Below are positions 15,009 to 40,907 of a DNA stretch of 64,000 nucleotides, one piece after another. Position numbers and translations under genes: made by a program. The stretch lies in NCBI GenBank assembly GCA_001799695.1, contig MGTY01000095.1:1-64000 (forward strand), written 5' to 3'. Under the pieces are notes generated by a model. The model was given only the letters and a program-made list of their open reading frames with translations, was not told the origin of the DNA and did not search any database. Each line of letters opens with the position of its first letter. The first letter of the stretch is position 1. This DNA is from Elusimicrobia bacterium GWA2_69_24. Lineage in GTDB: Bacteria > Elusimicrobiota > Elusimicrobia > UBA1565.

Positions 15009-16292
15009 ATGGCGCCATACTACTCGTCAGTGGCAAGAAATCGGCACTTCACCTTGAGCATCGCGTGCGCCGTCCTCTGGGCGGCTTCCGCCGCGTCCGC
15101 GGCGGTCGTGCGCTCCGTCCCCGTCTCGCTGACTCCGGCGGTCCCCGGGCTGTCCTTGCCCCAGGGCATCGGGAGCGTCCTGACCCGCAACGGGCTGAGC
15201 GGCCCCTCCGCGTCCCTCTCCCTGCCGCAGGCCGGCGGGGCGGCGCTCTCCCTGCCGACTCCGATGGCCGCGGCCGTTGCGGCGGTCACCCCCGCGGTCT
15301 CCGCCGCCCCCATCTCCGCGCAAGCGGCGCCCATCGCCGCGAGGTCCGCCAAGGCGCGCCCCGATTCCGCGGTCCGCCAGGCGACCCGGGCGGCCCACAA
15401 GCTCTCCAAGGACAACGGCCGCTCGGGGAAGGCGTCGACCCTGCGGCAGACCTTCGACGGGGCCGGACGCTGGGCCGTCCCCGGCGCCGAGACCCCGGTG
15501 GACCTCTCGGAGATCGACCCCGGGCAGACTCCGGGCTTCAAGGACAAGGGCGACCGGGGCAATCACGGCAGCAAGAAGGCGCTCAAGGCCCTGGAGAAGG
15601 ACCTGGAGAAGCTCGACCGCCTCCAGCGCGCCCTCTACGCCGAGGGCAAGCGTTCCGTCCTGGTCGTGGTCCAGGGCATGGACACCAGCGGCAAGGACGG
15701 CACCATCCGCTACGTACTGGCCCCGCTCAACCCCCAGGGCGTACGCGTCACCAGCTTCAAGAAGCCGACCGAGGAGGAAGCCCGCCACGGCTTCCTGTGG
15801 CGCATCCGGAAGGCCCTCCCGGGCCAGGGGATGATGGGGGTCTTCAACCGTTCCCAGTACGAGGACATCCTGGTCCCCTCGGTGTTCGGCGGCCTCTCCC
15901 AGGAGGTGATCCAGAAACGCTTCGACATCATCAACCGGTTCGAGAAGGGCCTGGCGGACCGCGGCGTGGAGGTGGTCAAGTTCTTCCTGCACATGTCCAA
16001 GGCCGAGCAGAAGCGCCGGCTGCAGGACCGGCTGGACGATCCCGAGAAGCGCTGGAAGTTCTCCACTTCCGACCTCGAGTCGCGCAAGAAGTGGGACGAG
16101 TTCATGGCGACCTACGGCAAGATCCTGGCCTGGACCAGCACCCCTTGGGCCCCTTGGTACGTGATCCCCGCAGACAACAAGTGGTTCCGCAACCAACTCA
16201 TCGGGCGCATCCTGCGCGAGCGGATGGAAGCGATGGGACTCTCCTTCCCCGAGCCCTCCGAAGACCTCAAAGACGTCGTCATCCCTGACTGA
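15009..16292 (+). CDS. Polyphosphate kinase 2 family protein with N-terminal signal/low-complexity leader
   Basis: 427 aa; 'VLVVVQGMDTSGKDGTIRYVLAPLNPQG', 'GVFNRSQYEDILV', 'RWKFSTSDLESRKKWDEFM', 'PWYVIPADNKWFRN'; N-term 'FTLSIACAVLWAASAASA' hydrophobic leader. Confidence 0.88.
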   Translation: MAPYYSSVARNRHFTLSIACAVLWAASAASAAVVRSVPVSLTPAVPGLSLPQGIGSVLTRNGLSGPSASLSLPQAGGAALSLPTPMAAAVAAVTPAVSAAPISAQAAPIAARSAKARPDSAVRQATRAAHKLSKDNGRSGKASTLRQTFDGAGRWAVPGAETPVDLSEIDPGQTPGFKDKGDRGNHGSKKALKALEKDLEKLDRLQRALYAEGKRSVLVVVQGMDTSGKDGTIRYVLAPLNPQGVRVTSFKKPTEEEARHGFLWRIRKALPGQGMMGVFNRSQYEDILVPSVFGGLSQEVIQKRFDIINRFEKGLADRGVEVVKFFLHMSKAEQKRRLQDRLDDPEKRWKFSTSDLESRKKWDEFMATYGKILAWTSTPWAPWYVIPADNKWFRNQLIGRILRERMEAMGLSFPEPSEDLKDVVIPD

Positions 16293-16296
16293 GCGC

Positions 16297-16587
16297 AGCG
16301 TCTGGCCCTGGCCCCATGCGTTCGGACCGCTCGGCCCTGCGGCCTCGCTTAGGGCTCGCAATGAAATAAGTGGCGCATTTCGCCGGAGGCGATTTTGGAG
16401 CGAGCCGAAGCGATGCGAGACGCGCAGGCCTTAAGGCCTGTGCGTCTCGCATCGCTTCGGCTCGCTCCAAAATCGCCTCCGGCGAAATGCGCCACTTATT
16501 TCATTGCGAGCCCTTAGCGCTTCGCGGCGCTGAATGCGGTCTGCGCCGCTCGCGAAATCCGACCGCATGGGGCCAGGGCCAGACGCT
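16297..16587. mobile_element. Repeat element with 24-bp inverted arms, interrupted by a 162-bp palindrome
   Basis: Arms AGCGTCTGGCCCTGGCCCCATGCG (16297-16320) and its reverse complement (16564-16587); core matches 40779-40857. Confidence 0.75.
16352..16513. mobile_element. 162-bp near-perfect palindrome flanked by TTA direct repeats (MITE-like)
   Basis: Arms 16352-16432 / 16433-16513 are reverse complements at 80 of 81 positions, no loop; TTA at 16349-16351 and 16514-16516. Confidence 0.85.
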
Positions 16588-16816
16588 TCCAGTGCAGTGT
16601 GCGATTCGAGTAGGTTATGACCTCTCCATGACGCCCCCCGGGGTGGGTGGAGGGGCATTATAAAGGGTGTAATAGATGACATATATAGGTACTAGGGCCT
16701 AGGTCCTATTACTATAGAGCAGGACCCTAGCGACCCATGCAGAAAACGGCGTTCCAGCGTAGAATGTTACTGTGGGGAAGGATAAAGACGTGCTGTACAT
16801 GAGAGGAGAATCAGAC

Positions 16817-19800
16817 ATGAAAGCCAACACGATGACCCGGGCAAAACAAGGACTGGCGGCCCTGGTCTCTTTTGCCCTCATCTTCTCGGCGCCGGCTCCC
16901 GCGATCTGGGCGAACGCGGCCGCGCAAAGCGGAGTGGTCACCACGGTCCCGGCCGGTATCGGGTCCATCGGGGTCGCGGGCGTGGCCGGAGTCAACACGG
17001 TCCAGGTCCCCCTCACCACCCTCACCCTCCCCCACCAGGACCTCCTCTCCACCCAGTTCCCGACCGTCAACCTGAAGACCACCCTGCCGGACATCCAGGC
17101 GCAGGCGGACCTGAAGGCCGTGACGGCGGTCCCGCAGACGCTGGCCGCCGCCCCCCAGGGCGTCGCGGTCGAGCGGCACCCGGTCATCGGCATCCTCAAC
17201 GCCCTGCAGAAGTCGGGCGGCGGCGACCTGATCCAGAAGTTCGGCACGGCCTCCTCGCCCGACGACATCGAAGCCATCGCCAAGGCCCTGCCCGAAGGGG
17301 CGGCCAAGGACAACCTGATCGCCTTCGCGAGGATCGCGGCGACCCAGGGCGGCGCCGGCGCGGGCGCGCAGGCTTTCGACGGCGTCGCCGAGGCCAAAAA
17401 CGTGATGCCCGTGGCCGAGGCCGCCCAGGTCCAGGGCGTATGGGGTTCGCTCTCCAAGTCCCGGCTGGTCCCCTCCTCCCTGCGCCGCTATGCCGCGCAG
17501 AAAGCGGAATCCCAACGGCAGAAGGCCGGGCTCATCGACACGGACGCGCTGAAGGTCCCGATCGAGAAGCTGCGCTGGGTACCGAACCCGACCGACCTCC
17601 CGGCCTCTACCAGGGAGATCCAGGGACGGGAGAAGGTCATCGTCGGCCAGCAGACGGCGCTGGAAGCCCTGGACTTCGGCCTCAAGATGCCGGGCCCGGG
17701 CTACAACGTCATCGTCACGGGGCCCGCGGGCTCCGGCCGGGAGACCTCGGTCACCCGCATCCTCGAGAAGATCGCCCCCACCATGGAGACGCCGGCGGAC
17801 ATGGTCTCCGGGACCAACTTCTCCGAGCCGTCCAGCCCCATCATCCTCGAGTTCGAGGCGGGCGAAGGCGCCAAGTTCCGGGCCGCGGCCGGCAAACTGA
17901 TCCAGGGTATGGCGGCGATGCTGCCCCAGGTCCTTAATTCCGGCGAGATAGCCCAGGCCCGCAAGCAGATCGAGGCCCAGGCCAAGGCCGGGATGCAGGC
18001 CAAGCAGGCCGAACTGGACGCCGAAGTGGCCAAGATCACGGTCCGCGGCGAGTTCGGCGTGAAGATCTCCATCCAGCAGACCGGCGAGGACACCATCGGC
18101 ATCGGCGCGGTCATCACGCACGACGGCAATCCGATCCAGCGGGAAGAGCTGGCCAAGATCCTCGAGGGCAAGGGCGTGACCGAGGAAGAGCTTTTCGCCG
18201 AGGTGCAGGCCGCGGCCCAGCCCTTCATGGAGCAGTACGCGCAGATGCTCCAGGAGAACCAGGGCGCCATGGGCGAGGCCCAGGAGAAGATGATGCAGCT
18301 CCAGGGCCAGGTCGTGACCAACCTGGTCAACCAGCTGGCCGCCCCCCTCATCAAGACGGCTTCGGGCAGCAAGGCCGATCCCAAGGTGATGGCCAAGTTC
18401 AAGCAGATGATGGAAGAGCGCCAGGCCGCGTGGGAGGCCGAGGTCGCGGCCACCAAGGTCGGTCCGTTCACCCTCATGATGCAGATCGGGGACAAGGGCG
18501 TGAGCCTGGGCCTCCTCCATGAGGGAGAGCCGGCCGACGCCAAGACCCTGGCCGCGCTGCAGGAGGGTGGCGTGGTGGGCAAGGACGTCTCCTGGAAAGA
18601 CATCATCGCGCAGGCCAAGACGGCGGCCGGCCCGCTGGTCCAGAAGTACCAGGAGATGATGAGCGAGATCCAGGCCGCGTACCAGGAGATCCAGAAGAAG
18701 ACCCCGGCCCTCACCCCCCGCCAGCGGGCGGCCGTGAGCTACGCCAAGGCCCTCATGACGGACCTGGTGCGCAACCACATGATCTTCGTTTCTCCCGAGG
18801 CCCGCGAGGCCGGCATCACCCCGGAGAAGCGCTACAAGATCGGCGTGGTCGTCGACAACTCGCGGACCCAGGGCGCGCCGGTGATCTTCGAGAACAACCC
18901 GACCTTCCAGAACCTCTTCGGCTCCGTGGAGGACGCCGGCGAGATCATGATGTCCCCCAACGGCATGATGGCCAAGAAGCAGAACCCGGGCGGCCCGACG
19001 CTGGTGGGCGGCTCGTACCTGAAGGCCAACGGCGGCTACCTGGTCATCAATCTCAACGACCTCGTCCGCGAGCCCAACGCCTACCCGGCGCTGATGCGGA
19101 TGGTCCGCAGCGGCCGGGCCGAGATCATCGAGGGCGGCGCGATCGGGATGGCGAACGGCGGCACCAGCTACAGCATGCCGGCGAAGGTGAAGGTAGTGCT
19201 GATCGGCTCGCCGATGATGAAGATGATGCTCAGGCACTACGACGAGGAGTTCTCGGGGGTGTTCCGCGCCAGCGCGGAGTTCGCCAGCTCCATGAAGATA
19301 GCGGCGGACAGCGTCGCCGGCTACCTGAGCTTCATGCGCAACATCATCACCCGCTCCACGGGCCTCATCATGGAGATGACCCGGGACGGGATCGCGGAGA
19401 TCCTCGAGTTCGGCTCCACCCTCTCGGGCTCCAACGAGCGCCTGAGCACCCAGTTCGGCTCCGTCGCCTCGCTGATGCGGGAAGCCTCCTTCTACGCGAA
19501 GGAAGCCGGCCGCGACGAGGTGGGCGGGGCCGACGTGCAGAAGGCGATCGCGCAGCGCCTCAACCGCGAGGGCGGCTCGGCGCGGCGCATGCAGGAGCTC
19601 TACACCTCGGGCACCTTCAAGATCGACACCCAGGGCTACAAGGTCGGCCAGATCAACGGCCTGGCGGTCATCGGCGACGAGTTCGGCATCCCGGCGCGCA
19701 TCACGGCGCAGGCGTCGGCCGGGTCCGCGGGCGGCCTGGTCATCTCGGCCGACAAGGTCGCGGGGACGACGGGCGCGTCCTTCAACAAGGCCCTGGCGGT

Positions 19801-20278
19801 CCTGGAAGGGTTCTTCGAGGGGCTCTTCGGGCAGCAGCGGCCCATCAACGCCCGGGTGCGGATATCCTTCGAGCAGAACTACGGCGGCATCGACGGGGAC
19901 TCGGCCACCCAGACGCAGATCTACGCGTCGCTGTCGGCTCTGTCCAACGTGCCGCTGAACCAGGGCATCGCGATCACCGGCTCGGCCGACCAGTTCGGCA
20001 ACGTGCAGGCGATCGGCGGGGTCAACCACAAGATCGGCGGCTACTTCGACGTGGCCAAGGTGAAGGGCCTGGACGGCACCCAGGGCGTCATCATCCCCAA
20101 GGCCAACATCACCGAACTCATGCTCCGGCCCGATATCGTCGAGGCGATCAAGGCGGGGAAGTTCCACATCTGGGCCGTGGAGCACGTCAGCCAGGGCGTC
20201 GAGATCCTGACCCAGCAGCCCTACTCCGAGGTCGTCCGCCAGGCGGCGGCCCGGATGGGGAAGATGGGCGCCAAATAG
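16817..20278 (+). CDS. LonB-like (COG1067/AAA_32-type) Lon-family protease with signal-peptide leader
   Basis: 1153 aa from ATG 16817; 'IVGQQTALEALDFGLKMPGPGYNVIVTGPAGSGRETSV', S16 'FEQNYGGIDGDSATQTQIYASLSALS...GGVNHKIGGYFDVAK'. Confidence 0.85.
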   Translation: MKANTMTRAKQGLAALVSFALIFSAPAPAIWANAAAQSGVVTTVPAGIGSIGVAGVAGVNTVQVPLTTLTLPHQDLLSTQFPTVNLKTTLPDIQAQADLKAVTAVPQTLAAAPQGVAVERHPVIGILNALQKSGGGDLIQKFGTASSPDDIEAIAKALPEGAAKDNLIAFARIAATQGGAGAGAQAFDGVAEAKNVMPVAEAAQVQGVWGSLSKSRLVPSSLRRYAAQKAESQRQKAGLIDTDALKVPIEKLRWVPNPTDLPASTREIQGREKVIVGQQTALEALDFGLKMPGPGYNVIVTGPAGSGRETSVTRILEKIAPTMETPADMVSGTNFSEPSSPIILEFEAGEGAKFRAAAGKLIQGMAAMLPQVLNSGEIAQARKQIEAQAKAGMQAKQAELDAEVAKITVRGEFGVKISIQQTGEDTIGIGAVITHDGNPIQREELAKILEGKGVTEEELFAEVQAAAQPFMEQYAQMLQENQGAMGEAQEKMMQLQGQVVTNLVNQLAAPLIKTASGSKADPKVMAKFKQMMEERQAAWEAEVAATKVGPFTLMMQIGDKGVSLGLLHEGEPADAKTLAALQEGGVVGKDVSWKDIIAQAKTAAGPLVQKYQEMMSEIQAAYQEIQKKTPALTPRQRAAVSYAKALMTDLVRNHMIFVSPEAREAGITPEKRYKIGVVVDNSRTQGAPVIFENNPTFQNLFGSVEDAGEIMMSPNGMMAKKQNPGGPTLVGGSYLKANGGYLVINLNDLVREPNAYPALMRMVRSGRAEIIEGGAIGMANGGTSYSMPAKVKVVLIGSPMMKMMLRHYDEEFSGVFRASAEFASSMKIAADSVAGYLSFMRNIITRSTGLIMEMTRDGIAEILEFGSTLSGSNERLSTQFGSVASLMREASFYAKEAGRDEVGGADVQKAIAQRLNREGGSARRMQELYTSGTFKIDTQGYKVGQINGLAVIGDEFGIPARITAQASAGSAGGLVISADKVAGTTGASFNKALAVLEGFFEGLFGQQRPINARVRISFEQNYGGIDGDSATQTQIYASLSALSNVPLNQGIAITGSADQFGNVQAIGGVNHKIGGYFDVAKVKGLDGTQGVIIPKANITELMLRPDIVEAIKAGKFHIWAVEHVSQGVEILTQQPYSEVVRQAAARMGKMGAK

Positions 20279-40761: not shown

Positions 40762-40876
40762 CGTCCCAGGTGCACCTCCGTCCGGACCGCTCGGCCCTGC
40801 GGCCTCGCTTAGCGCTTCGCGGCGCTGTATGCGTATGCGCCGCTCGCGAAATCCGGCCGGAGATGCACCTGGGACG
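40762..40876. mobile_element. Uninterrupted copy of the 16.3-kb repeat core, flanked by a different inverted repeat
   Basis: Arms CGTCCCAGGTGCACCTCCG (40762-40780) / CGGAGATGCACCTGGGACG (40858-40876); core CGGACCGCTCGGCCCTGCGGCCTCGCTTAGCGCTTCGCGGCGCTG...CGCCGCTCGCGAAATCCG. Confidence 0.75.
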
Positions 40877-40907
40877 ATCCGTAGGGCGGATTTGGTAGAC
40901 TCCGGGC

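Follow-up and report, generated by a model that had tools for sequence, protein, structure and literature searches.

A one-off palindromic derivative of a MITE in an Elusimicrobia genome, with ISAzo13 as the candidate mobilizing family

The window analysed here is a stretch of 64,000 nucleotides of Elusimicrobia bacterium GWA2_69_24 (assembly GCA_001799695.1, contig MGTY01000095.1, positions 1 to 64,000). Downstream of a polyphosphate kinase gene it carries a palindrome nested within another repeat, here called the host repeat. The features are as follows, with coordinates in the window.

15009-16292, plus strand: PPK2-family polyphosphate kinase gene; the host repeat begins directly after its stop codon
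16298-16586, no strand assigned: host repeat broken by the insertion, with a conserved core and matched locus-specific outer arms (16298-16320 and 16564-16586)
16349-16351, no strand assigned: TTA target-site duplication, left copy
16352-16513, no strand assigned: zero-spacer palindrome made of MITE bases 1-90 and then bases 72-1 in reverse complement
16352-16382, plus strand: left terminal inverted repeat of the palindrome, GGGCTCGCAATGAAATAAGTGGCGCATTTCG
16425-16440, no strand assigned: 16-bp palindrome CAGGCCTTAAGGCCTG, the proposed turning point, also found inside ordinary MITE copies
16441, plus strand: T90, the only arm mismatch, opposite G at 16424; most ordinary copies have T there
16483-16513, minus strand: right terminal inverted repeat of the palindrome, an exact copy of the left-end version
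16514-16516, no strand assigned: TTA target-site duplication, right copy
16772-20278, plus strand: Lon-related protease-like gene, downstream
40762-40879, plus strand: uninterrupted host-repeat copy (ends approximate), with the empty site at 40804-40827

The palindrome is 162 bp long (16352-16513) and has no spacer, and its arms are complementary at 80 of 81 pairs, with the sole mismatch at arm position 73. The preliminary description had placed it correctly to the base. Its folding energy of -175.2 kcal/mol, against a mean of -60.6 for shuffled sequence (z = -25), shows that the structure is far beyond chance. The sequence across the palindrome junction is single-copy in the 4.2-Mb genome, and no other perfect palindromic derivative was present in the approximately 789 kb of loci scanned.

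Removal of the palindrome together with one TTA restores exactly the uninterrupted sequence at 40804, and this empty site, CTCGCTTAGCGCTTCGCGGCGCTG, is intact only once in the window. Ten further uninterrupted copies of the host repeat lie elsewhere in the genome and amply document the empty state. The earlier claims of a real insertion with a 3-bp duplication, nested within another repeat, are thus borne out. These observations also bear on whether the palindrome is an assembly or amplification artefact, a concern raised by the fragmented and incomplete assembly (85% complete, in 132 contigs) and by the chimera-prone nature of such palindromes. A snap-back amplification chimera, however, would mirror the flanks too, whereas the flanks here are unrelated, carry TTA as a direct repeat and, once rejoined, give exactly the sequence of the empty site, and the genome holds the junction sequence nowhere else from which it could have been borrowed. 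We therefore consider an artefact very improbable.

A core is common to the 12 copies of the host repeat, but the outer arms, approximately 25 bp long and self-complementary, are specific to each locus (16298-16586, 40762-40879 and loci L117-L126). These arms pair better within a copy (mean alignment score 18.7) than between copies (7.7). The repeat is nearly confined to this genome among the 57 genomes searched, and both copies in the window begin just past gene stop codons. As the palindrome lies 60 bp past the stop codon of the PPK2 gene and is predicted to form an extremely stable hairpin, it might have been kept for host use, as a bidirectional terminator or an mRNA-stabilizing hairpin. 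This seems improbable, given that a hairpin-forming repeat was already at the site before the insertion and that the palindrome exists in one copy only, with no sign of conservation.

Searching the genome with the palindromic element yielded approximately 30 related places, which were extracted and oriented. Among them are 21 complete ordinary relatives of 219-383 bp, all starting with GGGCT and ending in near-perfect terminal inverted repeats of approximately 26-31 bp that are the same as those of the palindrome. Identical TTA or TAA flanks border 17 of these 21, as they do the palindrome; across the 22 full elements, 12 have TTA on both sides, 6 have TAA on both sides and 4 are without an identical pair. 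The preliminary description had held that copies without TTA flanks and consistent ends would speak against a mobile element, and the 18 TTA or TAA pairs among 22 elements instead sustain it. The relatives are an ordinary MITE family. The family falls into length classes of 268, 325 and 382 bp according to the presence or absence of two 57-bp hairpin modules (L010, L014 and L021 compared with L007), and an Rfam scan of two MITE copies and one host-repeat copy gave no match. Single ends are also found fused to gene starts or stops (L075, L076, L090 and L092 in genome G008; L073, L091 and L093), where GGGCTTGGAAAGAAATAA can encode a C-terminal GLGKK plus a stop, and remnants of 27-48 bp that retain both ends occur among the same loci. 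Where single ends in relatives were inspected for a transposase in the vicinity, most turned out to be remnants next to ordinary genes or small elements derived by deletion.

The palindrome itself is short and non-coding, with terminal inverted repeats, a target-site duplication whose empty site is intact, and many related copies (the 21 ordinary ones). In being short and non-coding, in its terminal inverted repeats, target duplication and many copies, and in having related IS ends elsewhere, it is like the bacterial MITEs Nezha, Chunjie and MITEAba12 (PMC10969869), but unlike them the window copy consists of one end only, arranged as a perfect palindrome with no loop. Of the foldback or MITE-like character first proposed for it, the MITE-like part stands, whereas a free-standing foldback element does not; we rejected a separate foldback family, because there is one palindrome only and its relatives have ends of approximately 31 bp.

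Comparison with ordinary copies resolves the palindrome into MITE bases 1-90 and, after them, bases 72-1 in reverse complement. Over bases 1-90, the T at base 90 included, it is identical to four ordinary copies (L007, L008, L010 and L011). The right end of the closest ordinary copies, ...GCGCACTTCG, differs from that of the palindrome. Bases 74-89, CAGGCCTTAAGGCCTG, are already palindromic within the ordinary MITE. Base 90, immediately beyond, is T in the palindrome and in most ordinary copies and G in a few; a perfect palindrome would need C. As T90 is the parental base just past the internal palindrome, the imperfection of the arms is best read as a trace of the parent. Judged by these alignments, the palindrome is the left third of an ordinary 219-383-bp MITE, turned into a one-off inverted-duplication derivative.

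This structure fits snap-back template switching. During replication or repair of a MITE copy, a new strand would have been copied through CAGGCCTTAAGGCCTG as far as base 90, turned back on itself with a G-T pair at its terminus, at the base of the snap-back primer, and then copied its own left arm outward to the end. The outcome would be replacement of the right two-thirds of the MITE by a mirror image of its left end. The palindrome may have formed elsewhere and then inserted at 16352. Alternatively, a full MITE at this site may have been converted in place, a second switch then falling within the identical 26-bp ends; the data do not tell the two origins apart. As both ends would still be valid transposase sites, the palindrome could still move as a unit, although its single-copy state weighs against claiming mobility for the palindromic form itself. 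Fold-back inverted duplications in yeast and humans offer a parallel, with hairpin-primed copying at short inverted repeats (PMC7467729, PMC3907307). Those events are chromosome-scale, whereas the present case is a small transposable element; the proposed origin is alike.

The same MITE origin could also be reached by recombination or end joining of two left ends on sister chromosomes, with the mismatch arising as a later C-to-T change. Such changes are common at CpG, the mismatched base lies in a CGCG context and the arms are otherwise identical. Yet the mismatch is exactly the letter found in the closest ordinary copies at the first base past the internal palindrome, and a random substitution would hit that base with that letter in approximately 1 of 486 cases, or in a larger share if CpG transitions alone are counted. 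We thus regard this route as unlikely, though a more serious contender than an artefact or a host function, and favour fold-back copying.

Which transposase moved the family can be approached through its ends and target sites. The preliminary description had looked to the IS5 group, and IS1031-like elements duplicate TNA, which counts for that group as the source of a non-autonomous family to which the palindrome would belong. Against this, the ends and the TTA or TAA duplications agree instead with ISAzo13, and the host genome has only two PF01609 matches, both on one contig, of which the one tested is an IS4-family transposase. No IS5-group transposase with these ends was found in the genome, which is incomplete. 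Membership of the IS5 group is thus very improbable, and a PF01609 transposase was rejected as mobilizer on the grounds that the tested match is IS4-like, in a genome that is incomplete.

A few genomes from the same order and class carry ISAzo13 (PF07592) transposase genes. The transposase of genome G002 recurs at 100% identity in Elusimicrobia bacterium CG_4_9_14_3_um_filter_62_55, which belongs to the same taxonomic family as the host. Right ends of these elements, read inwards, are GGCCTCGTTAAAAAACAACTGATTC (G004), GGCCTCGTTAAAGAATAACTGATTC (G037) and GGACCTGTTAATAAATAACTGATTC (G250), each with TTA or TAA outside; the end sequence of the palindrome's MITE type is GGGCTCGCAATGAAATAAGTGGC. 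To characterize the family more broadly, we sampled 80 loci from approximately 85,000 species genomes and measured both ends in 50 full-length elements from many phyla. Identical TAA or TTA lies just outside the ends in 37 of the 50, where chance would give approximately 0.8% for each element. On a profile built from 68 ends of those elements the palindrome end scores 9.0 bits, at the low edge of the range for IS ends (minimum 8.1, median 27.9). Scores of at least 9.0 bits occur at only 2 of 127,940 window positions, and both palindrome ends rank above all other positions in the window. The 28-base end sequence is present exactly twice in the window, at 16352 and 16513. End types other than this one, borne on interiors of the same kind, reach 11.0-23.4 on the profile.

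Thus, the profile ranking and the TTA or TAA duplications in 37 of 50 elements together make an ISAzo13-family transposase the best mobilizer candidate from sequence comparison; such an enzyme, inserting into TTA or TAA, would mobilize the MITE. The palindrome shares its end type and TTA or TAA target duplication with ISAzo13 insertion sequences, but lacks a transposase gene. No ISAzo13 gene was found in the host genome (85% complete, 132 contigs), nor was an autonomous partner with the same ends, although ISAzo13 elements with similar ends occur in relatives. The full-length insertion sequence with exactly these terminal inverted repeats that the preliminary description had suggested looking for was not found, and a scan for the end sequence in approximately 85,000 species genomes, which possibly do not include that of the host, gave no match. 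A plasmid search with the ISAzo13 transposase gave 186 records. We consider it likely that the palindrome derives from an ISAzo13-type MITE as a non-autonomous element, that it arose by fold-back copying and that an ISAzo13-family transposase mobilized it.

Additionally, the family shows matched pairs of different ends on conserved interiors. Copies in the host genome with 96-98% identical interiors differ at 10-12 of their 24 terminal bases, with matching differences at the two ends, and the boundary between differing ends and shared interior is sharp, at approximately base 24. For example, L029 and L021 have 98.1% identity over 320 interior columns and agree at only 14 and 13 of 24 terminal bases; between L031 and L017, each end has 12 differences in 24 bases, and the next 26 bases all agree. 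The two ends within one element, by comparison, agree at 22-24 of 24 bases in nearly all copies. Drift at the interior rate would produce ten or more changes in 24 bases at one end with a probability of approximately 1e-11. Still other end pairs, joined to a similar interior, are found in relatives from the order. The same interior type is also found with the unrelated ends GTGCTGCGACC... and CTAGTGTAGTG... (L055, L211-L213 and L216 in G006; L230 in G041), and the score of the GTGCTGCGACC-type end against ISAzo13 ends is that of random sequence.

Conserved interiors with differing ends have, by analogy, a eukaryotic precedent in the piggyBac-related CMITEs of corals, in which the interior is conserved between families while the terminal repeats differ (PMC2872659). 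Those elements are animal, approximately 100 bp long, with TTAA sites and 13-14-bp ends, whereas the elements here are bacterial, mostly 219-383 bp, with another transposase family as candidate mobilizer. The present family adds a bacterial case. Moreover, it connects ISAzo13, as candidate mobilizer, with a large MITE family found across one bacterial order. ISAzo13 does not appear in the text of the MITE review (PMC10969869), and the literature searched described no ISAzo13 MITEs and gave nothing specific on MITEs in Elusimicrobia.

As a structural derivative the palindrome is real, and the element behind it is of a common kind; its wider interest lies in the question of end exchange. The locus bears on how MITEs arise and come by matched ends: the parent can still be seen, as can the turning point inside it, the diagnostic base and the empty site, which makes the fold-back copying route testable. 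The palindrome indicates that copying of one end to the opposite side is possible, which supplies the step that end exchanges need, and we hypothesize that such exchanges arise by fold-back copying. Tentatively, the palindrome might even be a snapshot of a MITE changing its ends, caught as fold-back copying wrote one terminal repeat onto the other side. If this is true, a conserved interior could take on new matched ends, and thereby a new transposase.
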